From contig NC_091675.1 in assembly GCF_042453785.1 (NCBI RefSeq), positions 1,190,501-1,254,500 of the forward strand: DNA of 64,000 nt, given 5' to 3'. The position numbers and the translations under genes were made by a program. Source of the stretch: Malus domestica (lineage: Eukaryota > Streptophyta > Magnoliopsida > Rosales > Rosaceae). Positions 20,001 through 39,667 of the stretch are shown one piece after another; within the stretch, counting starts at the first letter, position 1; every line of letters starts with the position of its first letter. Below the pieces are notes generated by a model that ran no database searches, was not told where the DNA came from, and worked only from the letters and a program-made list of their open reading frames with translations.

Positions 20001-21644
20001 TGTGCCAATAGCCTTGCGATTCATCTTCTTCCACTCGGCATCAGACATGCTCTCGGGCTTAGCGGCATCTCCTTCAATTGGCTCATGCAAATCCTTGCAA
20101 TAGAGAATGTCCTCCATCCTTGGCTTCCATGTTACCCAATTGGAGTTGGTGAGTTTGATCATAGTGCCACTTCCTTCCATCTCGTAGTACGAGCCAACCG
20201 GGCTCTGATACCACTTGTTAGGAATGTCGGTACTACAAGATAGAGAATGCACAAAGTAAAGTAGAAAATGGACACCAAAAATTTATGTGGTTCGGCAATT
20301 TATGCCTACGTCCACCAAACAAGGATCAATCTTCACTATATGAAAAGATGAGTACAACAAGAGTAGTCTTACCAAGCCAAAGACAAGGCTTGATGGATAC
20401 AAGAAAGTAGGACACACACTTTCTATCACACTAAACTTCACTCACACAATGTGTAGTGGAACACTCTCACTCTCACTCTTGGAGTGGAACTCTAGCTTTG
20501 GACTTGATCCTTTGCTACTCACTACTCTCTTGATTTGTTGGTTCACTACAACATCACACCCATATTTATAGGTGAGGGTTTGGCATTCTACTAGTTTCTA
20601 GTGTATTCTTCAAACCTCTAGCATAGAAAGATCTAGACTAGCCACAAAAGTGTGGCTTCTAGATCTTTCCATTTGCAACCAAGGAAGCTAGTACTCTCTA
20701 GCTTCTTCCATCAACTTAATAACATGCTAGAATTGTCTAGCATGCTCCAGCCATCTCTCTTGCTTACTAGAATAATCTAGAACATTGATCATGGGCTGGA
20801 CCATATACCAACAGAATGCTCCCTTGTCCACAATTCATCTTGCATGAGCAATTTCATAGAACTATGCCTTTCGTGGTTCTTTATGCTTGTGTATGTGCGC
20901 GCGTTGCGAACTGTGCTTTGTTTGCAGGGAAGTATACTCCTCAATACAAGTGGCTAGAGAAGGAGCTGCCGAAAGTGAACAGGACAGAGACGCCATGGCT
21001 TATTGTTCTTATGCATTCTCCACTGTATAGCAGTTATGTACATCACTATATGGAAGGAGAATCCTTCAGAGTTATGTACGAGGAATGGTTTGTGGAATAT
21101 GAAGTAGATGTTGTCTTCGCTGGCCATGTTCATGCCTACGAACGATCTGTAAGTGTACCTTGTGCATGCCTGTGAACAATCTATTAAATCTATGGCGGTT
21201 TCAGATATGAATGTTTGCATCACAGGAACGGATATCAAATGTTGCTTACAACATTTCGAATGGACTCTGCACTCCCATAAGCGATCGGTCAGCCCCGGTT
21301 TACATAACCATCGGAGATGGAGGAAACCTAGAAGGCTTGGTTACCGAGTACGATGTTAATCTCATTCATACTATCTGTGAGCAGTCCTTCCTGTTGATCA
21401 AAAGTTTTGAAATTCGGGTGGCATTTTGTGTTTTTTCTGCAGAATGACAGAACCACAGCCAAGTTACTCAGCTTTCCGGGAAGCTAGCTTCGGTCATGGG
21501 ATTTTCGATATAAAGAACAGAACTCATGCCTTTTTCAGTTGGCACCGGAATCAAGACGGGTATGCGGTTGAAGCTGATTCTCTGTGGTTAAAGAACAGAT
21601 ATTGGAACAGTTTGGAAGACTCATCATCCTTAGCTGCATTTTAG
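14097..21644 (+). CDS. PAP10: Purple acid phosphatase, PAP10/PAP12 type
   Basis: Eight exons fit one frame: 14097-14297, 14524-14727, 14813-14924, 15054-15283, 15374-15512, 20928-21148, 21226-21347 and 21443-21644 (1431 nt, 476 aa). A signal peptide precedes [12 protein letters not shown]. The five metal-binding blocks are all present: [24 protein letters not shown] and [10 protein letters not shown]-glycosylation sites occur (NNTS, NYTS, NRT). The family hydrolyses phosphate monoesters with a Fe(III)-metal(II) centre, usually secreted or vacuolar and often induced by phosphate starvation. Of the relatives I remember, Arabidopsis PAP10 and PAP12 are closest; the exact orthologue is uncertain. 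Intron 5 is 5.4 kb because it holds a Copia element, but the splice sites around it are intact. Confidence 0.92.
15522..16119 (-). repeat. Copia 3' LTR
   Basis: 598 bp, same length and apparently the same sequence as the copy at 20216-20813. A TATA-like tataaatat lies on the minus strand near 15870-15885. Confidence 0.95.
16168..20252 (-). mobile_element. Copia gag-pol region
   Basis: Domains in order on the minus strand: copia-type gag, a zinc knuckle ([14 protein letters not shown]), the protease motif near DNGASFHAT, integrase with the [12 protein letters not shown] zinc-binding end and a DDE core, reverse transcriptase with YVDDM, and RNase H ending in the [15 protein letters not shown] block. 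The arrangement and sequence match TNT1-94-like Copia elements. Treated as a fossil; overall about one break. Confidence 0.9.
20216..20813 (-). repeat. Copia 5' LTR
   Basis: 598 bp, the promoter-side LTR for the minus-strand element. The primer site follows directly inside it. Confidence 0.95.
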
Positions 21645-23401
21645 ATCAAGTTTTCACTGCCCTCCAACCATGTAGACTTGCTGCACAAATTTCACTCACC
21701 TGCCATACCTAATGTTTGCATAAGTTGTATGTGTAAATTTAAGAGTAAAGAGATGGGAAGGGTGAGGTTTCATGTAATCTTTGTAGAATACCACTCTATT
21801 CATCATTCGGAATAAAACAATCCGTTCTCCATCCTCATTTAATTCCAAAGGTAGAACCATTTTCACTGATTTTTTTGTGTGTTGTCAGTCACCGCTATCT
21901 TTTCTTCCTTTTTTGAAGAGAGAGGGTTTCATCACAGATAAAGTAGGGAAGTGAATTCAACATACAATTTTTTTTCTGTTCGACAGAGCCTTGTGAGTTT
22001 TGAGTTAGACAAGGTGCTACGGTTGGATTGTTTCGTCTATTTCGTGTTTCTATCCAAGAGGCAGAAAGCGGAATCCTTCAAATCCTGATGACGAGACTAG
22101 AAAACTTCCCATCAAAACTTGGAATCAAACCAGGAAAGGAAATAATTGGAATTAAATCCCACAAGAAGACGAAATAGGCGAAGTAATCCTATTGTTGTGC
22201 CAAAGATAATTCAAAAGACTCAAAACTTAAAAGGCTCACCTGGTTGATAAGAATGACGAAATAATTCAACCGTCGTATTTGGTCTAACTCAAAACTCATA
22301 AAGCTCATCCGGTGCCTCAGATTAGACTAAATTAGACAACTTACAAGATTCAAAAGGAAAATCATTCACATAATATAGAAGAGACAAATTAGAGCCATAA
22401 AAATACATGTATACTTGTATTTCATTCATATCATACATGCATACACAAGGACAATAGCACTTGCAACAAACCCCTGCTAGCCACGACTCATTTACAAAAC
22501 CTGACAACATTTTTTTTGAGTTTTTTTGGTACACCCCTATAATTTTTGTCCAAAAACCTACAGATGGAAAAAATTTGAGGGACAGAAAAAAACATGATTT
22601 ACAAAAGCAGAAAAAAAGTGTATCTATATCATTTCTTATGAAGTAAATAACTAGTACCTGCTTAAGACAAAAGAAGAGAAACAAAGTTCTTTAGCATAAG
22701 AAACTACACATCTAGGCTTGGTCTGTCATAAGGAATGAAAGGTAGATGAACAAAAATATACACCAGAGTTCAGTCGTCGCACTACCATCTAGTCTACCCT
22801 TAGACACACTTCAAATATGGTAAAGAATAAAATTATGACTCGTCAACTCCAGTTGCAGTAAGTTCACTTGTAGAATTGGCAATAAATCTCAGCATTGACA
22901 AAAATACATGATGCTTGTTGAATGGGAGAGACAAACATGGCTTGAAATCCTATAATAAGACGAAATAAGCGAAGTAATCCAACTGTTGTGCAATAGCTAA
23001 TTCAGAGGACTTATATGGTGCCTCGAATTAGATTGAATTAGACAACCCACAAGAATTAGAATGGAAATGGCTCACATTAATTAACCATTGTGGCTATTCT
23101 AACTTAGAAGTCAGAAAACTCAATTGGTTAACTCAGAAGGCTTAGCTAGTTAATATAGACATACAAAAAAGATCGTATCTGGTCTAACTCAAAAGGCTTA
23201 TCCAGTGCCTCAAATTAGATTAAATTGGATAACAAATCGCATAATATAGAAAGACTGGAGCCACAAATACACATGTATACTTGTATATTTGTATTATATT
23301 CATCATACATACACAAGGACAATAGCACTAGCAAGAAACTCTGCAAGCTGCGACTCTTTTACATAACATGCACATTATATTTTCTTATTGGTTTATGATA
23401 T
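21645..23401. other. PAP 3' UTR and duplicated spacer
   Basis: The first 200 bases hold the PAP 3' UTR with an AATAAA at about 21811. The rest has no gene. It contains degenerate short repeats (around the phrase ctaactcaaaactcataaagctc and relatives) that recur at 37.5-39.4 kb and 41.8-43.3 kb, showing that this spacer belongs to the triplicated block described for the DREB2D genes. Confidence 0.6.
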
Positions 23402-24284
23402 TGTAGACATCGAAATTTCGTAAATAAATATTGACCGGTAAATCAAAGTGTCAACGCTCATGTATTACATAAGTTTTACACTTAGCGTGTGACTCAACGA
23501 AAATTGAAATGAGTTGGAAAAGTCATCAAATAGGACACGTGTCAACACCTGGCAGAAACGACTTATTTCATCTGGAATATTATATTCAAAATTAGGCCTT
23601 GGAAATTTCTATAAATACAAGCCTATTTCATTCATTTAAGGGAGCAATTCATATTACACCTTAAAGCTCTAAAGCTCTGAAACTCCGAAGCTCTCAAGCA
23701 TCCAGGTTCCCGAAGAATCAAGAAAGCCTTTTTCGTTCTTCGTTCATCGTTCATCCTAAGATCAAGCCCCAACGGCCCTTCGGATCAACAATCATCCACC
23801 AATTCAAGATCAAGCCCCGACGGCCCTTGAAGAAAGCACCATCGTTCATCATCCGTTCATCCAAGATCAAGCCTCGACGGCCCTTGGATCAACAAACATC
23901 AACAAATCCATACATCCAACCGTTCTTCAAGGTCAAGCCCAAAAGCCATTGAAGATCCGTTCATCACTGTTCTTCAAGATCAAGCCCAAAAGCCCTTGGA
24001 GATCCGTTCATCACTGTTCTTCAAAGATCAAGCCCAAAAGCCCATTTGAAGATCCGCTCAAATCCACCTTCAAGATCAAGTCCACGGCTCTTGAAGAACG
24101 TTCATCCTTAGATCAAGCCCAACGGCCCTTTGGATCAATTGCACATCCACAAATCAACACCTTACGGAGATCGAATCAGAGGATCAAATTAGAGAGAGAT
24201 TGTAACCCAAAATCATCAAATACAAATATTTGTTTGTGCACGTCGTTCTTGTCTCTTTCGTTTCAGGAAATTTCCGTGTTCACA
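23402..24284 (+). repeat. Left LTR of the gag-only element
   Basis: 883 bp. A TATA box (tataaatacaagcc) lies near 23611, so transcription should start near 23640. The rest of the LTR, about 640 bp, would be transcribed leader and carries the hairpin array. The internal region begins with aattggcacgcccagtggga, the presumed primer-binding area. Confidence 0.93.
23740..24145 (+). repeat. Array of about eight short hairpins in the LTR leader
   Basis: A loose repeat of about 30 nt recurs about eight times with variable spacers. Its plan is TTCAAG-ATCAA-GCC-loop-GGC-C-CTTGAA. Outer arms change together between copies: TTCAAG with CTTGAA, CCAAG with CTTGG, CTTCAAA with TTTGAAG. A second group of the same motif lies near 32420-32865, before the right LTR. 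Confidence 0.7.
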
Positions 24285-24363
24285 AATTGGCACGCCCAGT
24301 GGGACAATCTCTGCCTCTCATCTCTTTCTCCGTTCAAGAAATTCAAGCGCGCTTCCAAAATTA

Positions 24364-26136
24364 ATGGCATCAAGGAAGGCTCAAACTGTTCCCGCAACCG
24401 GCGCAAAGAACAAAAGCGTCATCGTCGCAACTGGTGTCACTTTGGGCATCACGACTCGAAGCATGGCAAGAGCTACTTCTGCCGCCTCTTTCACCTCTGC
24501 ATCAACTCTGCCAAGGGAACAAAAGCACCCAAGGCACGAGCCTTTGATCACCTTAGCCTCACTAAGGGCACCAAGGGGGGAAAGCCCAAGGAAATACTCT
24601 GAATCCATGCTCTCCGATGCCGATTCAAGCGACAGTTCAGCCATGCAAGTCATGACCATTGGAGCAACTTCAATCGATGAGCAGCTGGCTCAAATGAATG
24701 AAGCAATCGCAAGGCTAACCCGAACTGTGGAAGAAAAAGACTTGCAAATTGCAGCACTAGTCAACCGATTGGAGGCACAAGACGGCGATAAACCCGACCC
24801 AGAGGATGATCCACTAAAGGGAGGAGCTGGCGGAGACGAAGAACCCCCGGTGAAGAAAATCGATGGGAAGCCGGAGCCAGACCAAGCAGCGGCACTCATG
24901 GGATCTCTTTCTATCCAGCAGCTGCAGGAGATGATCACCAACACCATCAAGGCACAGTACGAAGGGAGCTCACATACCTCCTTGTTCTACTCGAAGCCCT
25001 ATTCCAAGAAGATTGATGCCCTAAAGATGCCAAGGGGTTATCAACCACCAAAGTTCATGCAATTTGATGGAAAGGGAAACCCGAAACAGCACGTTGCCCA
25101 CTTCGTTGAAACTTGCAACAACGCAGGAACCGAAAGGGACTACCTCGCCAAGCAGTTTGTGCGCTCGCTGAAAGGAAATGCCTTTGAGTGGTACACGGAC
25201 CTAGAGCCTGAGTCCATCAACAGTTGGGAGCAATTAGAGCGGGAATTCCTCAACCGTTTCTACAGCACCCGCCGCACTGTGAGCATGCTAGAGCTAACGA
25301 GCACAAAGCAGTGGAAGGACGAGCCAGTCATTGACTACATCAACAGGTGGCGCACTCTAAACCTTGACTGTAAAGACAGGCTCTCGGAAACCTCTTCAAT
25401 CGAGATGTGCATCCAAGGCATGCAATGGGGTTTGCAATACATCCTTCAAGGCATTAAACCACGGACCTTCGAGGAGTTGGCCACCCGTGCCCATGACATG
25501 GAGTTAAGCATCGCCCATCATGGGAAGAAAGAACCGATCGCCGACTACAAGAACGACAAAGTTCTTGGGACAAAGGTGGAAAAGGCCGCATGGAAACCCA
25601 CCAAGGAAGCGATGACGGTCAACACAGCTCCCGTCAAAATCTCCACACGAGGCAAGGCGATTCAAGCCGAAGGCTTTCGTGATCAAGAGATGCGTAGACG
25701 CACTTTGAAGGAGCTTGAGGAGAAAACTTATCCATTCCCCGACTCTGATGTGGTTGCCATGTTAGAAGACTTGCTGGAAAAGAAGGTGATCGGCTTGCCT
25801 GAGGGCAGACGGCCAGAAGAGATGAATCGCACCGACAGTCCAAGATACTGTAAATTCCACCGCTTCATCAGTCATCCGACAGAAAAGTGCTTCGTGCTGA
25901 AAGATCTCATCATGAAGCTGGCTCAGAAAGGAATCATCGAGCTAGATCTTGACGATGTGGTGAAGTCAAACTATACCACTTTCACTTTTGGCTCTTCCGA
26001 CTCAAAGTTTTCACCTCAACCGCTGGGGGCATCCTCCAAGACAAGCAAAGTTGAAGGATGGACTCAAGTCACTCCTAAGAAATTGCACAAGAAGCATACA
26101 TCTCCTCCACATGTTCGCCAATCGGAAAGGGGGTAA
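24364..26136 (+). CDS. Gag protein of the gag-only element
   Basis: A single open frame of 590 aa starts shortly after the primer-site region. Residues about 200-400 form the plant Gypsy retrotransposon gag domain (motifs such as GNAFEWYTDL and WEQLEREFLNRFYSTRR). A predicted coiled coil lies near residues 108-140 (EQLAQMNEAIARLTRTVEEK). No zinc knuckle was noticed. It looks whole. In such elements Gag builds the particle that packages RNA; enzymes must come from elsewhere. Confidence 0.88.
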   Translation: MASRKAQTVPATGAKNKSVIVATGVTLGITTRSMARATSAASFTSASTLPREQKHPRHEPLITLASLRAPRGESPRKYSESMLSDADSSDSSAMQVMTIGATSIDEQLAQMNEAIARLTRTVEEKDLQIAALVNRLEAQDGDKPDPEDDPLKGGAGGDEEPPVKKIDGKPEPDQAAALMGSLSIQQLQEMITNTIKAQYEGSSHTSLFYSKPYSKKIDALKMPRGYQPPKFMQFDGKGNPKQHVAHFVETCNNAGTERDYLAKQFVRSLKGNAFEWYTDLEPESINSWEQLEREFLNRFYSTRRTVSMLELTSTKQWKDEPVIDYINRWRTLNLDCKDRLSETSSIEMCIQGMQWGLQYILQGIKPRTFEELATRAHDMELSIAHHGKKEPIADYKNDKVLGTKVEKAAWKPTKEAMTVNTAPVKISTRGKAIQAEGFRDQEMRRRTLKELEEKTYPFPDSDVVAMLEDLLEKKVIGLPEGRRPEEMNRTDSPRYCKFHRFISHPTEKCFVLKDLIMKLAQKGIIELDLDDVVKSNYTTFTFGSSDSKFSPQPLGASSKTSKVEGWTQVTPKKLHKKHTSPPHVRQSERG

Positions 26137-26322
26137 AGCAGCTCTTGTCAACCTTCAAAGCAACATGAACGTGTTGAAGATGATGAAATTTCGACACATA
26201 GATCGTCCATCCCCATCACGATGCGTGATTTCTTTCCTGAAGACTTCTTCAATCACTCAGTCAAGGCTCCTTACTATGAAGATTGCGAGGAACGGCTTTC
26301 CCGGATCGCTTGACGAACCAAC

Positions 26323-27277
26323 AAATGCTCCTTGTTCGCACGAGCCTAAACTGCACGAACCAAAGCTCATCGCCTGCACGAGCCTAAACTGCATGGCACA
26401 ACGCTCCTTGCCTGCACGAGCTGAAACTGCAACACGGCACCAAATGCTCCTCGCCTGCACGAGCCAAAACTGCGTGGCACAAATGCTCCTGGTCTGCACG
26501 AGCATAAAAGGCAACACCAACGCTCCTTGCCTGCACGAGCTGAAACTGCAACACGGCACCAAATGCTCCTTGTCTGCACGAGTTGAAACTGCAAACGACA
26601 CCAAATGCTCCTTGTTCGCACGAGCCTAAACTGCACGAACCAAAGCTCATCGCCTGCACGAGCCTAAACTGCATGGCACAACGCTCCTTGCCTGCACGAG
26701 CTGAAACTGCAACACGGCACCAAATGCTCCTCGCCTGCACGAGCCAAAACTGCGTGGCACAAATGCTCCTGGTCTGCACGAGCATAAAAGGCAACACCAA
26801 CGCTCCTTGCCTGCACGAGCTGAAACTGCAACACGGCACCAAATGCTCCTTGTCTGCACGAGTTGAAACTGCAAACGACACCAAATGCTCCTTGTTCGCA
26901 CGAGCCTAAACTGCACGAACCAAAGCTCATCGCCTGCACGAGCCTAAACTGCATGGCACAACGCTCCTTGCCTGCACGAGCTGAAACTGCAACACGGCAC
27001 CAAATGCTCCTCGCCTGCACGAGCCAAAACTGCGTGGCACAAATGCTCCTGGTCTGCACGAGCATAAAAGGCAACACCAACGCTCCTTGCCTGCACGAGC
27101 TGAAACTGCAACACGGCACCAAATGCTCCTTGTCTGCACGAGTTGAAACTGCAAACGACACCAAATGCTCCTTGTTCGCACGAGCCTAAACTGCACGAAC
27201 CAAAGCTCCTCGCCTGCACGAGCCTAAACTGCATGGCACAACGCTCCTTGCCTGCATGAGCTGAAACTGCAAACGGC
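26323..27277 (+). repeat. 280-bp tandem repeat, about 3.4 copies
   Basis: Copies start at 26323, 26603, 26883 and 27163 and are almost identical. Each unit is itself made of about seven related 40-bp pieces around the phrase ctccttgcctgcacgagctg. Open frames on both strands repeat with the 280-bp period and are by-products of the repeat. Confidence 0.95.
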
Positions 27278-27949
27278 ACAAAAAAAAAAAAAAAAGGAAA
27301 ATACCAAAAAAAAAATATATGTATGTATTCGAACTACGTTAAGACTTGATCTCTTCTTTGGAAGGGTACGTAGGCAGCTTGAATATTCAATTTCGAGTTC
27401 AGTCACATCAAAATAAAAATAAATGTTTTATTAATGAGATTCAATTTCATTACAAGAAAAAAAGAATACATAAGTGATTACTATGTATTTTAAAAAAAAA
27501 AAAAATAATAATAATAAATACATACATTAAAAAAAATGAAAGAAAAGAAAAAGAAACATATATATATATATATATATATTTGTATGTCTCGGCCCAGCTA
27601 CAAATCAGGCTTCCTTCATTTCACAGGCTCAGGCTGACCACCAAGACTCCAGGTTCCGTTCAGGCCCAGGCCCATTTTCCAAAAGCTGCTCTCCAATCGT
27701 CTCCATTTCTCCTCGGCCCACAACGCGGCCCAGCAGCTCATGCTCTCTGTCCTCCTGACCCGAGCTTATTATGCGCGAATTCAAGGCCAAATATGGGCCC
27801 TTCAACTCCCTCAAACGCCACCGTATCTACCGAATCAAAATCCCCAATCCTTGCTCTCACTGGGAAATCCCCCGACCCAAGTCCTTATCCCCTCAAAGGG
27901 TCTCGCCGCGACGACGGTGGTGATGAGGCGGCGGGGTTATCAGGTGGGG

Positions 27950-28145
27950 CGGCGTGCAGGGAATTGGCGAGGGTAATTTCGAGATTTGGGGAGATGTACG
28001 GGAGGATTGAGATTTCGAAGAGGAAGCAGATGATGGAGCTGGAGAAGCAGAGAGTGGAGTTCGACAAGGAGCTCGAATTGCAGAGGTTGAATATGTTCAT
28101 GGATGATCAGGTGGAGCTCGGGAAGAAGATGAAGCTTCCAAAGTA
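27950..28145 (+). pseudogene. Captured fragment: ASIL/ENAP-like trihelix factor
   Basis: The frame contains CRELARVISRFGEMYGRIE followed by KRKQMMELEKQRVEFDKELE and MFMDDQVEL. This matches the C-terminal coiled coil that I recall from ASIL1/ASIL2/ENAP trihelix transcription factors. The DNA-binding domain is missing. It sits in the body of the LTR element in sense orientation, so it is a copied host piece and not a gene. Confidence 0.7.
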
Positions 28146-28423
28146 CTCACATGCTCCAGAGAACTCGAGATTGGGACGCGCCGGCGCACCTTCAGCCTGG
28201 GCTTCTGCAGAAATTGGCCTGGGTACATGAAGCAGCTTTCTGAATTCATGGAAACCCAGAACGTGAAGAAGAAGACCCAAGTCCACCAGCTACAAATCCG
28301 GAGCCCAAATCCATGAAAATGAGCAGCCCAAAAGACCCTCATTTCCAAAGCTCTCCATCATAGCCTCCTCCTCCGATCGCAAGCGTTCCATTCTCGTCAC
28401 CAGCAACTCACACCCCAACTCAA

Positions 28424-28535
28424 ATGGACCCGGGCCAGGCCGAAATGTTCTGGTCACCAGAGACTCCCCGCGAGCCCATGGAGTTCCTCTCCCGCTCCTG
28501 GACCGTCTCAGCCTTCGAAGTCGCTCCAGCGAAAG
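28424..28535 (+). pseudogene. Captured fragment: VAN3-binding/FORKED1-like
   Basis: The frame includes SPETPREPMEFLSRSWTVSA, matching the N-terminal block of VAN3-binding and FORKED1-like proteins (ETPxEPMEFLSRSWS). Only about 37 codons are present. The identification rests on one short but distinctive motif. Confidence 0.6.
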
Positions 28536-28571
28536 TACCATTCGAGAGTCCGAGGCAGCGACTCACCATCT

Positions 28572-28870
28572 ATGGCAACTGAGTCTCGCAGGCCGAGTTC
28601 TAAAGCCGCGACCTTTATCCTGGTCCTGGTCCTCTTAGCTACTCTGTACAGCTCGTGCCACGGAGACCAGTCTCAGATCCATCCGGGTCGCAAGCTGTCG
28701 GGCAGCCAAAGGAGGAACAACGGCGGCAATCAGAGTCAGATCCGGAATTGCAACGACATGTCGTCGGAATTGCAGTGCTCCCGCAACCCCATGTGCCGGT
28801 GGTGCCGCAGCGACGTCTTCAACGATATGTGCTTCCCTAAGCTCGAAGCTTTGCGGTTGCCGCTTCAGGA
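28572..28870 (+). pseudogene. Captured fragment: small secreted Cys-rich protein
   Basis: The open frame starts with a signal-peptide-like segment (FILVLVLLATLYSSCHG) and continues to RNCNDMSSELQCSRNP and CRWCRSDVFNDMC. I recall a conserved plant family of unknown function with this CSxNxxCRWC core. It begins with an ATG in fair context and retains the signal peptide, but then runs into unrelated sequence. Confidence 0.5.
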
Positions 28871-28882
28871 CCTTATTCTCCT

Positions 28883-29290
28883 ATGGGTGGAAACATGTGG
28901 CAGAACACTCCAAACTTCGCACCCCCCACTTTGCAGCTTCCAGGTAGCAGATTGAAATCTACTCTGAGTGCTAGAGATATGGATTTTGAGATCGAGATGC
29001 TTAGCCTAGAGAGAGATCGTCGAAGGCAGCAACGCTTGATTGACGAGATGTCTGGTTCCCCATCTAGCTGGAGCAAAGGCTTATCTCCTGCATCGCCCTT
29101 TTCTGCATCTGGGAATCGAACAAGGGAATTGAATTCCATCGGAGCAGTTCCCCAACAGCTTCATCCATGATGCCAACAAATGGTGATGAGCCTGACGTAT
29201 CACGGGTTCAATCTCTTGTCAAGGATGGACCTCAAGCCTCGCAACAACGCGGGCAATTTGGGTTCGAGTACCACAAAGTGCAGAAGCAAC
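28883..29290 (+). pseudogene. Captured fragment: tandem CCCH zinc-finger (TZF) protein
   Basis: Motifs SRLKSTLSARDMDFEIEML, RDRRRQQRLIDEMSGSPSSW and, further on, DEPDVSRVQSLVKD match the C-terminal region of plant arginine-rich CCCH zinc-finger proteins. The zinc fingers themselves are absent. The piece spans more than one reading frame and cannot make the host protein. Confidence 0.7.
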
Positions 29291-29504
29291 AAGAAACAAA
29301 CAAGAAAGGTCCAAGCTTTTTCTTCGGAACGTCCAGGCCCACTCCCTCTCCATTCTGGAGACCTCGTTTCCGCCCTCCGTCGGCGCTTTCTGCCGAGATC
29401 GGACTAGCTGCATCACTCCGATCTTCAATTTCCACGCCAAAACCGGATCGCCATTTCCCGCTGCGGGATGGAATCTAAACGGCGTTTGTGCAGTACTGTT
29501 GTGA

Positions 29505-29650
29505 TTATTCGTTCCCAGCTGTGATGTTCTGCCCGTACCTCACTGTGAACCCCGCCACCAGGCTCGGATCAATCTCCGTCTTGATCCTCACATTCTTCGC
29601 CACGTCAGCTAGCGCGGAGGTGTAGCTGTCAACGGCAGAGGCGTTCATGC
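29505..29650 (-). pseudogene. Captured fragment, antisense: chloroplast ATP synthase delta subunit
   Basis: On the minus strand the frame reads VDSYTSALADVAK and then directly NVRIKTEIDPSLVAGFTVRY. Both blocks belong to the chloroplast ATP synthase delta subunit (AtpD), the first near its N-terminus and the second near its C-terminus, so the middle of the gene is missing. It lies opposite to the neighbouring captured pieces. Confidence 0.7.
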
Positions 29651-29689
29651 GGGAGACTGATATTGATCAGGATGCATGCAAGCACATGT

Positions 29690-29815
29690 GAGTTGGCGAC
29701 CTTCATCATTGGATGGGCGAGACTTACCTACACGGATGCTTTGCGCACACTGGACAGGTTTCCTCAATTAAGGTAATACGCAATAAGCAAAATTGGTCAG
29801 TCAGAAGGATATGGC
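29690..29815 (+). pseudogene. Captured fragment: RBP45/RBP47-like RNA-binding protein
   Basis: The frame gives GDLHHWMGETYLHGCFAHTG then VSSIKVIRNKQ, matching the start of the first RRM of RBP45/RBP47 oligouridylate-binding proteins (GDLQxWMDExYLxxCFAHTG). It includes the RNP2-type block only. Downstream sequence to about 30070 looks like further host-derived pieces (APPPWLPPLNE) that I do not recognise. Confidence 0.75.
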
Positions 29816-30436
29816 AGTAAAGGTAGTGGTGGAGCCTCTTCCTCTGCACCTCCGCCATGGTTGCCGCCTTTGAATGAGATTGACAAAAACAAAGTTTGTC
29901 AACACACACCCAAAGGCCTCCTCCGTCTCTTGCCTCGCAGCTGCCAAACAACTTCAAAGACCGCTGTCAAACGACTAGCCGGCCGAGAAGCGCTTCCTCA
30001 AACTTCAACTCTCCGTCCGTCTTCGTCCGCTCCCTGCAAATTCCTCTGCCCACCACCCAAATTTATACAAAAAGAAATACAATTTAATAAAAAAAAAAAA
30101 AAAAAAAAAAGGGATGGTGGTGCATCTGGCACCACGTGAAAAAGAGGAATGGTAGATCAAAGATGGGGTACAGCCCATGGCAGATCAAAAGTTTCTGGTG
30201 GTGCATGGGCACCATGTGCAGAAAGAAAAAAAAAATTGTTGTAAAAAATAATCAAATAATAAAATAATAAATAAAATAAAAAATGCATAGAGAGAAATAG
30301 AAGGTCCATTTTATTTATTTTTCTGGGAATTTTACATAAATTTGCATTATACATAAATAAAAAATAAAAAAAATAAAATAAAATAAAATAAAAAAAAAAA
30401 ATCATCAAATCAAATCAAATTTACAAGAGGGGATAT

Positions 30437-31087
30437 TCAAAGACGATCAGGTGCCGCCTCACAACTCGGTGGAGCTCCAGGAAGAGAAGGCGTCGAAGGT
30501 TGGCCGTTTGAAGCCTCAGCAGTCGGTACAGCCCCAGAAGACGAAGGTAAATGCTGCTGGAACAAACCCACAAACCTCCGATGATCAAGTAAAATCTGAC
30601 CATCAGATTCCTGCATCTGGTCAATTTTCCGCTTCATGTTTGTGGCATAGTTATGTGCAAGCTTGTGCAACTGTTTATTCTCATGCTTGAGCCCTCTAAC
30701 CTCCTGTTTGAGACTCATCACTTCCGCCGCCAATGATTCAACTTGACGGGTTCGAGCAAATAGGCGTTGGGCCATATTAGACACAGAACCTGCACACTGC
30801 ACACTGAGAGCCAAAGAATCCTTAACAGCCAACTCATCAGACCGTTTGGAAAGTAGTCTGTTATCTCTGGGAGTGACAAGGTTTCGGGCCACCACCGCAG
30901 CGGTCATATCATTCTTCACCACCGAATCCCCAACGGTAAGAGGACCAGTAGGGGATATGAAGGATGGGCGCCATATGTTGTCTGGAGAAGGCGGGACTGC
31001 CTCTTCACCAAGATTCAAGTCAAAACGACGATCGGAGGGTCCTGACATTTTCAAAGTGTTGAAGAAAGAAGAGGTCGGACGAATCAA
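30437..31087 (-). CDS. Antisense ORF (216 aa) with coiled coil in the gag-only element
   Basis: An uninterrupted minus-strand frame begins MIRPTSSFFNTLKMSG, includes RRFDLNLGEE, and has a strong heptad-like coiled coil in VESLAAEVMSLKQEVRGLKH and onward. The C-terminal part is Pro/Ser-rich. Similar proteins are often annotated singly in rosid genomes, and antisense ORFs are known in Tat-lineage Gypsy elements such as Retand. Function is unknown. It could be a packaging or regulatory protein of the element, or a host-derived gene captured intact. Confidence 0.65.
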   Translation of the reverse strand: MIRPTSSFFNTLKMSGPSDRRFDLNLGEEAVPPSPDNIWRPSFISPTGPLTVGDSVVKNDMTAAVVARNLVTPRDNRLLSKRSDELAVKDSLALSVQCAGSVSNMAQRLFARTRQVESLAAEVMSLKQEVRGLKHENKQLHKLAHNYATNMKRKIDQMQESDGQILLDHRRFVGLFQQHLPSSSGAVPTAEASNGQPSTPSLPGAPPSCEAAPDRL

Positions 31088-31099
31088 GATCTTAGAAGT

Positions 31100-32940
31100 G
31101 CAAGAATGGAGTTTTCACAAGTAAAATTCAAGTGTGCTTTGAAACGAACAGCGTGCCTCTATAAAAAAATCAGCACTCGACGGGATTTCAGAGATCGAAG
31201 AGGCGAGCTCAGAATTCGAAGAGGCCATTCAAAAATCGAAGAGGCAAGCTCAGAAATCGGAGAAGCATCTTGCTTTTCCAGACGCGTCAACACCCGTCAC
31301 ACGCAAACTCAGCTTTGCGGAAATCACGGGTAATTTGTCGAAGCGCCGATCCCAGTTATCGAAGAGGCGCCAGTCTTTTTCAGCCGCGTCAACACCTGTC
31401 ACATGCACACTCAGCTTGGCGAAAATCACGGGCAATTTGTCGAAGATTTTCGGTGAAGGAGAAAGCACGTGAAGTATACTGTTCAATCATCCAACGGTTG
31501 CCGACACGAGTGAAAGAATAGTACATCTACAGGTGTTAAAGAACTCCCTATAACTGTCCACCTTCACCCTCCATAGCAAGGCAGACATACAGAGTCAATC
31601 TTCATCTCCAAATATGCTTTCTCAACGAAGGCTCTCGAGTCATTCAGTGTTCCTTATTCCTTGGGGTACCTCAGCAAACAAATGACACCAAAGCAAAAGT
31701 ATCTCATATCACCAGGGTAGAAAGCAAAAGTATCTCATATCATGCGTCTTCCCTGTCCTTTCCTTTGTCCTTGTTCTTACCTACAAAGACAAGGATAAAG
31801 AAAACAATATGTCGGAACCTCCACTCAAACTCAGGTAAGGAACCGACTGCTTGGAACCCTTCCCTGATTGCCTACCTGGCACTGCTCTCGAGTACTCGCC
31901 CCCCACTGCTGCTGTACTTTCAAAGAAGCTGCCACATCTGCCCGGAGAACAGATAAGGCAAGTGAAAATGATACCTTGCAGCATGTGGAGACAAGGTGCA
32001 GAAGGAACAAGCAGAGAAGAATGCGGTCTGCACGATCAACTCAGCAGAAGGAGTCCGAACTGAGGAACTCGAGAAGCTGCCACATCTGCCTAAAGAAACA
32101 AGCAGAGAAGAATGCAGCATGCACAGTCAACTCAGCAGAAAGAGTCTGAGATGAAGAACTCGAGAAGATGCCGCATCTGCCCGAGGACGGTGAACTCGTT
32201 TTGACCCTCAAATTCTTGGGTCGACTTACTAGGTGTTGTGGGCTGCACGTGCCGATTCACCACCCTTGAATCAAATCCTTAAAGACCAAGTCACCAATTG
32301 GAAGAGGAGCCCATCAATCTCGAAGATCATACCGTTGATCAAACTACTCAGGTGTGAATTAGAAAGATTGAACAAAGCAACAAGTCATCACCTTCACCTC
32401 GTGCCTGCTTGCCGTGTGTTCGAGTCAGCCTTCAAGAATCAAGCCTCAACGGCCCTTGAAGAAGCTTCTAGCCAAATTCAAAATCAAGCATCGACGGCCC
32501 TGGAAGAAATCACAAGTCCGATTCAAGATTAAGTGTCTACCACCCTTGAATCAAAACCTAGTTCAAGAATAAGCTGTGGAAAATCAACAATTGGAGGAAT
32601 CCAGAAAATCCTTCAACCCAGTTCAAGATCAAAGCTGTGGAAAGTCAACAAGCGCAACAAATATGTGCCGATTCACCCACTACCAAAGCCAAAGATCATC
32701 TACCACATGAAGCTCCTTGTGGTCCAATTTCAACCTTCAAGATCAAGCCTCGACGGCCCTTGAAGAAATTTCAAACGAAAGTTCAAGAACAAGCCTCAAT
32801 GGCCCTTGAAGAAATCTCCAGCCCAATTCAAGATCAAGCCTCGACAGCCCTTGGATCGACATCTACAGTAAGGGACTTCAAAACGCATCTCCTACACGTG
32901 ACAAGCACATGTATACGACGTGCCTTGAAGTGGGGGCATT
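31100..32940 (+). mobile_element. Repeat-rich 3' internal region of the gag-only element
   Basis: No protein is recognised. Three repeat sets follow one another: a pair of about 110-bp units around acgcgtcaacacc (near 31271 and 31378), about three 100-bp units around agctgccacatctgcc (31925-32175), and the CAAG/CTTG hairpin motif also present in the LTRs (32420-32865). Confidence 0.7.
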
Positions 32941-33823
32941 TGTAGACATCGAAATTTTGTAAATAAATATTGACCGGTAAATCAAAGTGTCAACGCTCAT
33001 GTATTACATAAGTTTTACACGTAGCGTGTGACTCAACGAAAATTGAAATGAGTTGGAAAAGTCATCAAATAGGACACGTGTCAACACCTGGCAGAAACGA
33101 CTTATTTCATCTGGAATATTATATTCAAAATTAGGCCTTGGAAATTTCTATAAATACAAGCCTATTTCATTCATTTAAGGGAGCAATTCATATTACACCT
33201 TGAAGCTCTAAAGCTCTGAAACTCCGAAGCTCTCAAGCATCCAGGTTCCCGAAGAATCAAGAAAGCCTTTTTCGTTCTTCGTTCATCGTTCATCCTAAGA
33301 TCAAGCCCCAACGGCCCTTCGGATCAACAATCATCCACCAATTCAAGATCAAGCCCCGACGGCCCTTGAAGAAAGCACCATCGTTCATCATCCGTTCATC
33401 CAAGATCAAGCCCCGACGGCCCTTGGATCAACAAACATCAACAAATCCACACATCCAACCGTTCTTCAAGGTCAAGCCCAAAAGCCATTGAAGATCCGTT
33501 CATCACTGTTCTTCAAGATCAAGCCCAAAAGCCCTTGGAGATCCGTTCATCACTGTTCTTCAAAGATCAAGCCCAAAAGCCCATTTGAAGATCCGCTCAA
33601 ATCCACCTTCAAGATCAAGTCCACGGCTCTTGAAGAACGTTCATCCTTAGATCAAGCCCAACGGCCCTTTGGATCAATTGCACATCCACAAATCAACACC
33701 TTACGGAGATCGAATCAGAGGATCAAATTAGAGAGAGATTGTAACCCAAAATCATCAAATACAAATATTTGTTTGTGCACGTCGTTCTTGTCTCTTTCGT
33801 TTCAGGAAATTTCCGTGTTCACA
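32941..33823 (+). repeat. Right LTR of the gag-only element
   Basis: 883 bp, the same length as the left LTR and about 99.4% alike by eye. It ends at GTTCACA just before the GATAT duplication. Confidence 0.93.
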
Positions 33824-34042
33824 GATATACAGCACACTGGAATGACCACGACAAAGCGCAGGAAAACTCATGCGGCGCCGCAGCCGTATAGATATTTATA
33901 CACACCTCTATATTTTTGTACTATATATACACACACCTTATATATATATATTTGGGCATATGAAGCACTGAAGAGTACCTTGTGCAACTTTATTTACCAA
34001 GCTACCACCTTTTATCTCCACACCTTCAATTTTGATTTTGCA

Positions 34043-34844
34043 TCATGCACCATTGAGACGAATGTGATGTTTCCCGGCAATTCCCATCCATGAACCGCCG
34101 CCGAAAATGCCTTGATCAGCCACCACTGGAAGATCAAGCGACATGGCTGCCTCCGTCCACATCGAATCATCAAACACCGGGAAGCTCTCGCTCATGTTCC
34201 CCCAGAATATCCCATCCATTCCTTCATTGTTCACACCACTACTCATATTCTTTTCCACTTTCATGCCGTCCTGCTCCGGCAGGGTCTCAGCGCCGCCAGA
34301 ATTATAATTTCCGTGGGGCTGATCGACTTTCACATTCGGAAAATTATTGTGAATAACAGGTACTGCAATATCTTTCACAGGAGCAGCATATATAACATGC
34401 AGGATTAGTCCCAGTACCTGATGGATTGTTCAGCACAAGGGTTTGGTTCGGAATTTGAGGTGGCACGCCGGCATTGGCCGACGAGGGAAATACTTGATGC
34501 TGCAGGTGCTGATTCAGTTGATGATGGTGATAGTTAGGGGCTTGCTGATCTGGCAAATTGAGCTTCGCCTTGGAACCGTAGAGCTTCCTGGCGGCGGCAT
34601 CATAAGCCAGAGCGGCCTCAAAGGAGGTGGCGAAAGTCCCGAGCCAGAGCCGGGCACCGCGGTTGGGCTCGCGGATTTCAGCCACCCATTTCCCCCACGT
34701 CCTTTGCCTGACGCCCTTGTAGGTGCACATAGCGTTCTCCGGCCCTCCTTTCCCCTTCATGCAACCCTTCCTTGAGCTTCCCTGCGCTGGCCGCTTCGCT
34801 GGCTTCTTCTCCGCGACCCCAACACTCATCTCCGACGTCGACAT
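34043..34844 (-). pseudogene. DREB2D-like AP2/ERF gene, copy 1, frameshifted
   Basis: The N-terminal 150 codons are open and include the basic [20 protein letters not shown] block and a full AP2 domain ([21 protein letters not shown]14 and E19 as in DREB proteins). Compared with copies 2 and 3, four extra bases (a TA repeat near 34388-34392) shift the frame after NPACY, and the frame stops soon after. The remaining C-terminal half (IPVIHNN-type to [18 protein letters not shown]) survives downstream in another frame. A truncated DNA-binding protein without the acidic activation region could still be made. TATA-like sequence lies about 120 bp upstream (34966-34972). Confidence 0.88.
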
Positions 34845-35975
34845 TGTGAGAATTTTTTTAGAACAATTGACGACTTTTTTTGTGATTATTATTATTATTA
34901 TTATTTTATTTTATTTTAATTCGGGTGGTGAGTTTGAGAAACCATAACCCGTAACGTTGGCGATCCTTATATGAGGAAGGCAGACGTGACCTGAAACGTG
35001 GCTTGTGGAGGATTAGGGCTTGAATACTTGGCATGGTGAACTGGAGATATCGTGTCCATGGCTAGCCTCACTGTTTAAATCTCTAATACACACTTGGCTT
35101 ACACCCTTGCTTGCTTTTTTGCTCAGGTGGCAATCGGAGAGGAGCAGAATTCCAGTTTTGCTTTCTCATTTTTCATTTTTTTCTTTTATTAAATCCGAAA
35201 TACAATTATATAGAAGAGTCACATTGGATCTTTAACTCAGAGATGAATCGTAATGAATGAATAACAATAGAAGAGAAAATTTTTAAACTAAATAGAAACT
35301 TGACTGAATAGACTTTCTGAAGTTGACTGAAAATTCATATGAGAGAAAAGTGGATGAATAACAATAGAAGAGAAAATTTTTAAACTAAATAGAAAATTGA
35401 CTAAGTATGACTTTCTGAAGTTGACCGAAAATTCATATGAGAGAAAAGTGGATGAATAACACTAGAAGAGAAAAATTTTAAACTGTACATAAAACTAACT
35501 GTCTTTCTGAAGCTGAATGAAAGTTAAGACAAGTTAGAAATGGATGAATAACAGTAGGAGAGAACACTTTTAAACTGTACAGAAAACTGACTGAGTATGT
35601 ATTTCTGAAGAAGAACTAAAAGTTGAGATAAGTGAGACTTATGTACTTTTGAGTAAGAACTAAAATTAAGTTGAGATAAGTGAGAGATTTGTTGACAGTG
35701 GAAACAGATGTTTGTTCTAATTTTTTTTTTCACATTTTATTTAAATTAGAGGATAAACACGTTTACTTTATCATTTTTTTCAATTTTTTTTAAAATAGAG
35801 TGTTTGGGGTTTATGAAAGTATTTTCAAACTTTCTCTATGGAGATATTTGGATAATGGTATCCGTCTTTTCAAGGGTTAAATTTATATTAACATTACAAT
35901 GCGATCCACATCAGATATTAAGTTATAAAATTAATTATTTCGGATATTGAAGTTAACATCAAAACCATATGTATC
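34845..35975. repeat. Spacer with about 100-bp tandem repeat
   Basis: After the DREB2D-1 promoter (to about 35000) a repeat of about 95-100 bp begins near 35254, 35352, 35450 and 35543, each starting atgaataacaatagaagagaa or a variant. Related units occur at 44.8-45.3, 46.3 and 47.0 kb. No gene is seen. Confidence 0.75.
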
Positions 35976-36140
35976 ATGACAGAACAATATTATGGATATC
36001 ATTGTCGCTGATAGCCTGTCAATCAAACACCAAAGTAAAATCTCCATAAAAAAATCAAATAAATAATAAAATATATATAATTCGAGTCCAACAAAAAGTA
36101 AAATCCCCAATTGGGCAAATGTAGCAAGCCCTAATTACAA
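35976..36140 (-). pseudogene. Scrap of GID8 exon 2 and intron 1
   Basis: The segment gacagaacaatattatggatatc through aagccctaattacaaa matches the 5' end of exon 2 and adjoining intron 1 of the GID8-like gene (58150-58340). Only about 16 codons of exon are present, so it cannot code. Confidence 0.8.
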
Positions 36141-36282
36141 AGAAGAATTCACGTCGAATCTTTAAGTTAGAGACGAATCGTAATGGATGAATAACAGAAG
36201 GGAAAATTTTTAAATTATACAGAAAAACTTATTAAGGATGTCAAGTAGAGTTGACTGACAGTTGAGATAAGAAATTTATCTC

Positions 36283-37470
36283 GGCCAAACCCACGATTCA
36301 AATGATACACTTACACATTACGAATTAAACCCTGCGAAGGGACAGACAGTATTGTTTGTTGGGGACATCTCTTACGCAGATGGTTATCCGTTTCATTACA
36401 ATAACCGCAGGGATACGTGGGGAGGTTCGTAGAGAGAAATGTTGCTTACAAACCGTGGATTTGGAATGCAGGAAATCACGAAATCGATTTTGTTCCTGAG
36501 CTTGTATGCATTTTTTTTGCATTGTTTGTTGGTAACCTCTCTTGATGTAATATACGATACAAGTAATTACAATGTTGTTGCAGGGTGAAAATAAACCCTT
36601 CAAACCGTACACACAACGGTATTTTGGTCCCTACGAAGCTTCGGGTATTACGTCTCCTCTTTCGTACTGCATCAAGAAAGCTTCAGCCTATATCATAGTC
36701 TTGTCCTCTTAATCAGCATATGGTAAGAATGCTCAGTTCTCCACATTCATCTTGCGCAAGCAATTTCACAGAACTGTGTCTTTCGTGGTTACTTATGCAT
36801 TGCAGGGAAATATACTCCTCATACAAGTGGCTCGAGGAGGAGCTGCCGAAAGTGAACAGGACAATGACGCCATGGCTTATTGTTCTTATGCATTCTCCAC
36901 TGTATAGCAATTATGTACATCACTATATGGAAGGAGAATCCTTCAGAGTTATGTATGAGGAATGGTTCGTGGACTATAAAGTAGACATTGTCCTCGCCGG
37001 TCATGTTCATGCCTACGAACGATCTGCAAGCGTTACATGCCTGCGAACAACCTATTAAAACTATGGCGGTTTCAGATATGAATGTTTGCATCAGAACGGA
37101 TATAAAAATCTTGCTTACAACATTTCAAATGGACTATGCACTCTGGTAAGCGACCAGTCAGCCCCGGTTTACATAACCATCAGAGATGGAGGAAACCGAG
37201 GATTGGTTACCGAGTACGATGTTAATTCCCATTCTTATTATCTGTGAGCAGTCTTTCCTGTTGATCAAATGTTTTGAAATTGCTGTGGTATTTTGTGTTT
37301 TTCTGCAGAATGACAGAACCACAACCAAGTTACTCAGCTTTCCAGGAAGCTAGCTCTGGTCATGGGATTTTCGATATAAAGAACAGAAGTCATGCATTTT
37401 TCAGTTGGCATCGGAATCAAGACGGGTATATGCAGTTGAAGCTGACTCTTTGTGGTGAAGAACAGATATT
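36283..37470 (+). pseudogene. Purple acid phosphatase pseudogene (exons 4-8)
   Basis: This is a copy of the 3' two-thirds of the phosphatase gene at 14-21 kb. Exon 4-, 5-, 6-, 7- and 8-like segments begin at about 36283, 36584, 36806, 37096 and 37309. Damage relative to the parent includes one base lost in the G-run at about 36417, an in-frame TAA near the end of exon 5 (about 36711), one base lost near the start of exon 6 (about 36819), a lost acceptor before exon 7, and a divergent C-terminus. Exons 1-3 are absent. The metal-binding blocks are still readable. Intron 5 lacks the Copia element. Confidence 0.9.
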
Positions 37471-39667
37471 GAATTCAATGAGTTCTGAGTTAGACAAAAC
37501 ACGACGGTTTGATTATTTCGTCTTTCTATATTAACCAGGCGAGCCTTTATTTCGTCTATATCTTATTTCTATATTAATTGGGCGAACCTTTTGAGTTTTG
37601 AACTAGACTAGGCGCGATGGTTAAATTATTTTATCTATTTCATCTTTCTATATTTTGTGATCGAGTTTCATTCTGAATCTTGTAAGTTATCCAATTCAAT
37701 CTAACACATCAGAACTCGTTCATCGAACTACTAGCATAGATAATGAAATTATGACTCCAAGTCCAATTGCAATAAGTGCACTTGCAGAATTGGCTCTAAA
37801 TCCCAGCATTGATAAATATACAAGATGCTTGTGGAATAAAAGGGACAGATATGGCTTGCAACAAAGATAGAAATGAATTAAGCTCAAATGTTAGACTTCC
37901 CCAAGAGGCAGGAAGAGGGATCCTCCATATCCTAATAACGAGACTATAAAACTTCCCACCAAAAGGAGGAATCAAACCAGGAAAGGAAATAGATTAAATC
38001 CTATAATAAGATGAAATAGATGAAATAATCAAATTGTTGTGCCAAAGCTAATTTAGAGGACTCATATGGTTCTCCAGATTAGATTGAAGTGAATAACTCA
38101 TAAGATTCAAAATGGAATAAAAAGATAATAGACAAAATAATCCAACCGTCATGCATAGTCTAACTCAGAACTTAGAGGGCTCGCCTTGTTGATAAAAAGG
38201 ACGAAATAATTTATCCCTCATGCCTAGTCTAACTCAAAATTCAGAAAGTTTGTTTGGTGCCTCATATTAAACCAAGTTAGACAACTCACAAGATTCTAAA
38301 AGAAAATCATTCACATAATATAGAAGAGATAGAGTAGAGCCCCAGATATATTTATACTTGTATATATGTATTTCGTTCATATCATAAATGCATACACAGG
38401 GAGCACTTGCAACAAACCCCTGCAAGCTGCGACTCATTTACAAACCCTGCACATAACTTTTTTTTTTTTTTGTTTCTTAGTACACAACTAAAAATTTTGC
38501 CCAAAAAATCTACAGATTAAACGAATTAAAAAAAAATGTGTCTATATCATTTCTTACGAAGTAAATACTAGTACATGCTTAAGACAAGAAGAGAAATAAA
38601 GTTTCTTTAGCACAAGAATGTACATCAAGGCTTAGTATGACATAATGAATGAAAGATAGATGAACAAAACTATACATTAGAGCCCAGTCGTCGAACTATT
38701 ATCATAGCCTACCCTTATACACACTTTCTAATACTGTAAATAATAAAATTATGACTCATCAACTCCAGTTGCAATAAGTGCACTTGCAGAATTGGCAATA
38801 GATCCCAGCATTAACAAAAATACATGATGCTTGTTGAATGAAGGGACAAATATGGCTTGGAAACAGAGAGAGAGAGAGAGATGAAGTAATGCCTCAACTG
38901 TTGTACGGATAAGCTCAAACCTTAAACTCCCCCAAGAGGTAGGAAGAGGAATCGTCCAAATCCTGATGATGATCCTAGAAAACTTCCCATCAAAATTTGG
39001 AATCAAATCAGGAACGAAATAATTGGAATTAAATTCCATAATGAGACGAAATAGGCGAAGTGCAATAGTAAATTAAGAGGATTTATATGGTGCTTCAGAT
39101 TAGATTGAATTAGATAACTCACAAAAATTATAATGGAAATAATTCACATAATTAACTATTGTGCCTAGGCTAACTCGAGACTCAAAAAACTCGTCTAGTT
39201 ATCAGATTTCAAAAGGCTTACCTGGTTAATATGATAGGTGAAAAAGATGCATCTGATCTAACTCAGAAGGCTCGTCTAGTGCCTCAAATTAAATTAAATT
39301 GAATACACATCACATAACATCTGCGTACTTGGATATTGTATTTTATTCATATCATACATACACAAGGACAATAGAACTTGCAAGAAACCTTGCAAGCTGC
39401 GACTCTTTTACATTACCCTGCACATTACATTCTTTTGAGTACACTCCCAAAAAATCTAAAAAGATTAAAAGAAGAAAACCTTAATGGTCTTATTGAAATG
39501 ACCACGACAAGGCGCAGAAAAACTCATGCGACGCCGCAGCCCTTTAGATATTTATACACACCCTACTATACATAATGTGGGCGTATGAAGCACTGAAGAG
39601 TACCTTGTGCAACTTTATTTACCAAGCCACCACCTTTGATCTCTGTCCCTTCAATTTTGATTTTGCA
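37471..39667. other. Duplicated spacer, no gene
   Basis: This parallels the sequence after the intact phosphatase gene (21645-23401): the same short phrases built on ctaactcagaac, the same cacttgcaacaaacccctgcaagctgcgactc block (38400-38440) and the same stretch leading into a DREB2D 3' end. A (GA)n run lies at 38868-38881. No coding frame is supported. Confidence 0.6.

Follow-up and report, generated by a model that had tools for sequence, protein, structure and literature searches.

The element described here lies in the window, the 64,000-nucleotide stretch of the Malus domestica genome that was analysed (NC_091675.1, positions 1,190,501 to 1,254,500 of the forward strand). Judged from its sequence, it is a gag-bearing long terminal repeat (LTR) retrotransposon without recognisable pol, in which a mosaic of host cDNA occupies a slot downstream of gag, ahead of the 3' region. 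The mosaic is assigned to at least ten host genes, with a probable eleventh source on C17 (29261–29333). Its pieces very probably arose as reverse transcriptase repeatedly switched template at this one slot, both to cellular mRNAs and from one element RNA to another.

Composition of the cargo mosaic

The slot sequence was used to search one genome (651 Mb, 19 contigs), whose chromosomes are written C1, C7 and so on in the locus names. The DNA searches scored at most 40 candidates each, and counts taken from them are lower bounds. The slot (27586–29814) resolves into pieces of ~60–360 bp (Table 1). Their identity to the intact genes taken as parents is 86 to 98 percent over 58–358 bp, with E-values down to 5e-164, which excludes chance matches. 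Pfam, applied to the parents, backs six identities, namely trihelix, pyruvate kinase, FORKED, ANK-CCCH, GH17 and ATP synthase delta. Both zf-CCCH_AtC3H23 and Ank were found in the ANK-CCCH parent on C11. The parent frames of the RBP45-like, Cys-rich and bHLH-like pieces gave no accepted Pfam match, a hit of the Cys-rich frame being set aside as below its curated cut-off, and these three names are presumptive. The single parent frame scanned for the source at C17:7484580 had no Pfam match.

The original prediction had proposed at least five host genes within 27580–30070, in both orientations, and had named six sources (a trihelix factor, VAN3-binding/FORKED1, a Cys-rich protein, a CCCH protein, ATP synthase delta and RBP45/47). 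All six are present where it placed them or close by, and parent loci for the named fragments were found elsewhere in the same genome. The count was too low, however, since the two-exon gene, the plastid-type pyruvate kinase, the GH17 glucanase and the bHLH-like gene come in addition, together with the probable C17 source. The stretches 27580–27800, 28266–28306 and 29815–30070 consist of family sequence or of pieces repeated elsewhere. Both orientations do occur. According to parent ORFs (open reading frames) and introns, eight host segments are sense, two adjacent ones (bHLH-like and ATP synthase delta) are antisense, and one is not oriented.

Spliced pieces and jumps within exons

Five introns were checked, in three members of the family. 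All five are gone, and each junction can be placed at GT–AG, with 0–2 mismatches in 20 at the flanks. In the window, the RBP45-like piece lacks an intron of 1017 nt and the two-exon gene lacks one of 109 nt. The cargo of member L026 lacks both introns (259 and 93 nt) of its C6 parent, and that of L024 lacks the 81-nt intron of its C1 parent. Because every checked intron is removed at GT–AG, capture is placed at the RNA level, which answers the question of RNA-level or DNA-level capture raised by the original prediction. In addition, the cargoes of L060, L061, L063 and L025 match exon by exon with gaps in the parent, as seen at the level of alignments rather than base by base.

Two further gaps lie inside exons. 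The ANK-CCCH piece skips ~460 nt within one uninterrupted coding exon, and the ATP synthase delta piece skips ~350 nt within a single coding exon. An intron was rejected for the former, as the parent ORF reads through, and for the latter, as the gap falls within one coding exon; neither gap has GT–AG ends. Both are read as template jumps, which would have occurred within one mRNA. Priming into the slot from poly(A) tails, considered because A tracts flank the slot, is unsupported, as the parent ORFs, as far as they show, place the pieces in coding sequence or at the 5' end of their genes.

Microhomology at the junctions

Exact common runs of 3, 8, 4, 5, 2, 4 and 5 nt, with a sum of 31, are found at seven junctions. 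These are the inter-gene junctions with both sides known, and exclude both slot ends, the region around 28266–28413 and 29653–29685. At two of the seven, the neighbour is the closer element copy (L033, L031) and not the gene. When breakpoints are drawn at random in these parents, the mean sum is 4.8, or 10.1 with equal search freedom, and none of 20,000 draws reaches 31 under either null. This test replaces an earlier one on nine junctions, where 14 of 20,000 draws attained the observed sum of 39 but two within-parent junctions can self-match over long runs (maximum 1812).

Age of the captures and a second insertion

Across the measured pieces, cargo and parent differ by 2.3 to 13.9 percent. 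The trihelix, Cys-rich and CCCH pieces differ from the chosen parent by 3.9, 6.4 and 4.2 percent, and from a second locus by 13.1, 12.8 and 13.2 percent, respectively. Since the parent is much closer than the second locus, these three captures are younger than the divergence of the two loci in each pair.

A second full copy of the mosaic, 99 percent identical, is located at C13:20224540–20227030 (among the best 40 of 574 candidates scored). This copy has its own target-site duplication (TSD), GTTAG, so the same mosaic occupies two independent insertion sites. Its LTRs differ at 6/883 sites, those of the window element at 5/883, and the two cargoes at 11/2229. The mosaic was complete no later than the earlier of the two insertions. 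The difference between cargo and genes exceeds that between LTRs (0.6–0.7 percent), as expected if the captures are earlier than the insertions.

Thirty-seven loci were checked for family sequence. Apart from the copies in the window and on C13, 23 loci used as genes or relatives are without it and 12 hold it. Four kinds of piece (two-exon gene, pyruvate kinase, FORKED and RBP45-like) recur in the 12 loci with family sequence (L031–L039, L041, L043 and L053, the last with one 71 percent match only). C5:15468372, C14:14860057, C5:30377009 and C5:654713 (one 71 percent match at the last) were rejected as parent genes because they hold family sequence, and hits of lower identity were taken as the genes for this reason. 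The two-exon-gene piece differs by 8.0 percent from an element copy and by 11.9 percent from the intact gene; for the FORKED piece the values are 7.2 percent (L031, L032) and 13.9 percent. Because these element copies are closer to the window than the genes are, part of the cargo probably came by inheritance or by exchange among elements, and direct capture by the window lineage need not account for every piece. The C10 Cys-rich gene is also present in element L015, with wider limits than in the window. The sites comprise 1 shared-derived, 13 window-only and 16 L015-only patterns, which speak against one shared capture and indicate that the window element and L015 took this gene separately.

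A variable slot across the family

The 29-base primer-site pattern has 763 matches genome-wide at up to 3 mismatches (405 forward, 358 reverse; 0 for the reversed control), some of them perhaps in related elements with the same site. The family probably counts several hundred copies. The sample of 16 members draws on the window element, the C13 copy, ten loci found through the right anchor (L019–L028), L015 found through common cargo, and four found through the primer site (L060–L063, chosen by hand across chromosomes from 91 zero-mismatch sites listed). Variable sequence is found in the slot of all 16 (in L027, for the right part alone), at cargo lengths of 1.2–2.6 kb, and different cargoes sit between the same anchors. 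When all cargoes are compared with one another they fall into 12 groups, which have no more in common than short pieces or a single gene fragment; the one large group is L019, L020, L021, L022 and L062. Within it, L020/L022 consists of 1716 bp like L062 (99.4 percent) followed by 934 bp like L019 (98.6 percent), with an 8-base overlap; by these matches it is a recombinant of an L062-type left and an L019-type right part. The original prediction regarded the window element as one unusual case of repeated capture. The many-gene cargo and its origin in repeated events are borne out by the data, but the element is not a single oddity. At least one further copy, that on C13, has the same set of fragments, and other sampled members have different sets.

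The cargo of six of seven further members searched (L024, L026, L060, L061, L063 and L025) matches more gene-like loci, with paired loci on other chromosomes and exon gaps, along with loci that are probably other elements; parent sequence was read for L024 and L026 only. Pfam domains in cargo frames include a histidine-kinase ATPase in L060, which we take to be ethylene-receptor-like, HMG-CoA reductase in L063, HVA22 in L020, and FAE1-type ketoacyl-CoA synthase and CCCH domains in L024. NCBIfam adds histidine-kinase and HMG-CoA reductase matches, all below curated cut-offs, as expected of fragments. Of ten cargo frames, three (from L061, L023 and L026) gave no Pfam match, as did the one frame of the window, and another L026 frame matches only below curated cut-offs. 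The longest sense frame exceeds the antisense one in 14 of 15 cargoes, which are not all independent.

Two side observations concern individual members. At L060:586–1911, an open frame of 442 codons crosses pieces of several genes, including the histidine-kinase ATPase domain. On C7 (22635103–22677214), six right-anchor matches of equal score and changing orientation lie within ~42 kb, suggesting a local array of elements.

Proposed mechanism and alternatives

The splicing, the sense bias, the microhomology and the jumps within an mRNA fit template switching among co-packaged RNAs. Gag particles would package element RNA along with cellular mRNAs, and an autonomous relative would supply reverse transcriptase. 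The enzyme would leave the element RNA for an mRNA at a few matching bases, copy ~60–360 nt and make further jumps inside the same mRNA, to another mRNA or to a second element RNA, before a last jump returns it to element RNA. The slot may be the former place of pol, and would tolerate cargo because, with pol supplied in trans, it contains no sequence that the element requires in cis. The antisense pair (29449–29653) is most readily explained as one chimeric cDNA block joined inverted, and the chimeric ORFs would be a by-product of slot filling. We give an even chance to a broader proposal, in which the place of pol is a permanent swap slot and nearly each of several hundred copies has its own host-cDNA mosaic, continually renewed through mRNA switching and exchange between co-packaged element RNAs.

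Several points weigh against this account. Among the ten host segments with known orientation, two are antisense, an outcome not expected from simple switching of the minus strand to an mRNA. The junction between the C17 piece and GH17 has just 2 nt of homology plus a 3-nt gap, and the junction test covers seven junctions, not the slot ends, ~28266–28413 or 29653–29685. Moreover, the L028 cargo mostly matched loci of unclear nature, with no spliced parent seen, and a sense excess is absent from the cargo of L026 (121 versus 128). Finally, mRNA packaging and an autonomous pol partner are both points that we infer, and no partner was identified.

Short-piece multi-gene mosaics in both orientations are typical of Helitrons, and microhomology arises in DNA repair too. 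A gene-collecting Helitron or Pack-MULE that inserted into the LTR element and was then carried along is nevertheless improbable, as 5/5 checked introns are removed in three members and the members examined hold different cargoes between the same anchors. We give slightly less credence still to one ancestral chimeric cargo that later diverged by mutation, deletion and recombination, with no continuing capture. Such a cargo could account for the old pieces common to several members (two-exon gene, pyruvate kinase and FORKED), but the 12 cargo groups have little sequence in common, two members acquired the Cys-rich gene independently, several pieces lie 2–6 percent from their own parent and ~13 percent from its relative, and the divergences of 2.3 to 13.9 percent point to captures of unequal age.

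It is also unlikely, though less so than these two, that the cargo is maintained because its chimeric proteins serve the element or the plant, as new genes by exon shuffling. The longest sense frame does exceed all 50 shuffles in 7/15 cargoes (L020, L022, L023, L024, L025, L060 and L063, of which L020 and L022 share one cargo); the L060 frame reaches 442 codons across several genes, and 233 residues of L063 match HMG-CoA reductase. Captured coding sequence, however, lowers the stop count by itself, and the longest frame is within the shuffles in 8/15 cargoes, including that of the window. There, the frame that adjoins that of the trihelix piece is probably not the one in which the two-exon gene is translated. 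An assembly artefact or a chimeric contig could also bring together many short pieces of different chromosomes. This is extremely improbable, given that C13 carries another full copy, with a separate TSD and 11/2229 cargo differences, and given the same architecture in the other members examined. Repeated template switching at one slot is thus the reading that we prefer.

Architecture of the element

The element spans 10,422 bp (23402–33823), with the TSD GATAT at both ends. Its gag frame also hits Ty3_capsid, under the cut-off of that profile. The region from gag to the 3' LTR has 25 listed ORFs that reach 80 aa, and none of them matched a pol domain (reverse transcriptase, integrase); the element is therefore considered non-autonomous, in agreement with its earlier description as gag-only. 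The match of other members to the right anchor starts variably, from 29815 to 30278. The Pfam scan of the antisense 203-aa ORF gave no match above cut-off. Among repeats of at least 60 nt in 20000–40000 no inverted pairs were present, terminal inverted repeats and Helitron ends having had no dedicated search.

Table 1 Features of the apple element and pieces of its cargo, in window coordinates
Feature	Position	Strand	Basis or related loci
5' TSD GATAT	23397–23401		flanking sequence
5' LTR, 883 bp, TG...CA	23402–24284	+	direct repeat
Putative primer-binding-site region	24287–24315	+	source of 29-base pattern for family census
gag, 590 aa, uninterrupted frame	24364–26136	+	Pfam Retrotrans_gag PF03732, E 4e-14
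280-bp tandem array, 3.4 copies	26319–27283	+	repeat analysis
A-rich left anchor of cargo slot	27284–27585	+	partly conserved in other members
Piece present at several loci (to ~27645) and piece common to C9, C8 and C3 loci (27698–27804)	27586–27801	+	genome search
ASIL-type trihelix fragment, sense	27802–28159	+	parent C7:30446342, 96 percent; C1 relative 83 percent; Pfam Myb_DNA-bind_4 in parent
Two-exon gene, intron gone, sense	28157–28269	+	genes C1:31945787, C7:36420860; also elements L033, L034
Piece recurring at many loci, including family members	28266–28306	+	genome search
Piece common to elements L035–L038, partly L039, L041	28297–28398	+	genome search
Plastid-type pyruvate kinase, N-terminal part, sense	28342–28400	+	gene C16:17516225, 93 percent (C16/C13); Pfam PK in parents
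FORKED/VAN3-binding fragment, sense	28413–28551	+	genes C13:17185109, C16:16989179; Pfam Auxin_canalis in parent
Small Cys-rich secreted-type protein, 5' part, sense	28544–28869	+	gene C10:38407915, 93.6 percent; presumptive name
ANK-CCCH zinc-finger gene, pieces 28866–29148 and 29141–29273, sense	28866–29273	+	gene C11:5986818–5987688
Unnamed source (probable)	29261–29333		C17:7484580; also C11, C15, C1 loci
GH17 beta-glucanase fragment, sense	29337–29455	+	gene C14:22010857, 96 percent; Pfam Glyco_hydro_17 in parent, E 1.4e-84
bHLH-like fragment, antisense	29449–29533	-	gene C10:26597551, 94 percent; presumptive name
ATP synthase delta (OSCP), two pieces, antisense	29529–29653	-	gene C10:5654882; Pfam OSCP in parent
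RBP45/47-like fragment, sense, intron removed	29685–29814	+	gene C10:13191463–13192608; presumptive name; first part also in L053
Right anchor of cargo slot, A tract at its end	29815–30110	+	conserved in other members
Antisense ORF, 203 aa, aORF-3R position, ahead of 3' LTR	30437–31048	-	ORF listing; position compared with PMC7264820
3' LTR, 883 bp	32941–33823	+	direct repeat
3' TSD GATAT	33824–33828		flanking sequence

The copies of the tandem array (26319–27283), which sits between gag and the cargo, are 99 percent alike and contain ~40-bp G+C-rich sub-units. Repeats related to this 280-bp array are visible in further family members. On either side of the element, the blocks 20944–23367 and 36821–39416 are 62–95 percent alike with their order partly kept, perhaps an older local duplication.

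Implications

If the broader proposal is true, the family would be a transcriptome-sampling, exon-shuffling library, the RNA-level counterpart of Pack-MULEs and Helitrons. A high-copy family with many-gene spliced mosaics as the rule would offer a large natural set of template-switch junctions, informative on how plant reverse transcriptase changes template and which mRNAs enter Gag particles. Such cargo would also bear on the rate at which chimeric frames originate, and on whether cargo silences or seeds genes. For annotation, fragments of HMG-CoA reductase, ketoacyl-CoA synthase, histidine kinase and the like within elements can pass for genes.

Comparison with known gene-carrying elements

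Gene transduction by LTR elements is already known, and the printed multi-gene cases that we met hold three genes. The maize LTR retroelement Bs1, named as low-copy (PMC2774510), contains parts of three host genes. Their acquisition is reported as transduction (PMC13317346, PMC5408686), and the pieces are made up of exons only (PMC4717578). The apple element is of the same kind, with spliced host-gene pieces lying between LTRs; Bs1 has a beta-1,3-glucanase, and the window has its GH17 piece. It differs in having at least ten sources against three, and in a family with 12 cargo groups in 16 members, one of them recombinant. Terminal-repeat retrotransposons in miniature (TRIMs) are very short elements without coding capacity, a class to which the 10,422-bp, gag-containing apple element does not belong. 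In the soybean TRIM GmaRetroS15, which has 5-bp TSDs, the LTRs enclose exon-only pieces from three host genes, and gene-carrying TRIMs measured 1172–1449 bp (PMC4717578). The exon-only pieces, LTRs and 5-bp TSDs are common to both, whereas the size, gag, array and antisense ORF set the apple element apart.

In maize, a survey counted 425 LTR elements with host gene fragments, and reports no single element that combined fragments from two or more standard nuclear genes (PMC2774510). Captured genes in LTR elements number 672 in rice and 1343 in sorghum (PMC3726574). These elements likewise hold host fragments inside; no multi-source element was identified among the maize ones, in contrast to at least ten sources in the window. 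Pack-MULE and Helitron gene captures have been counted in many copies (PMC13317346), and Pack-MULEs hold exons plus introns (PMC4717578). Host gene fragments as many-copy cargo are a common feature, but Pack-MULEs and Helitrons are DNA elements, whereas the apple element is defined by LTRs and TSDs and its checked introns are removed (5/5), unlike in intron-keeping capture from DNA.

Grande, Retand and RIRE2 have an antisense ORF (aORF) ahead of the 3' LTR, and a review states that transduced sequences are usually sense (PMC7264820). The likeness to these elements is one of ORF position, and the apple aORF is separate from the cargo. For HODOR, an apple repeat, the published sequence has 9716 bp (PMC13334179). 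Our literature search, which covered a limited set of journals, listed no description of a family-wide cargo swap slot of this kind. In LTR-mediated retroposition of animals and plants, template switching at microsimilarities links an mRNA to element cDNA, and could in theory do so several times (PMC5408686). Relative to that process, the apple family shows many switches per element, one fixed slot and, in addition, exchange between elements. The apple element is filed as a variant of the gene-transducing LTR elements.

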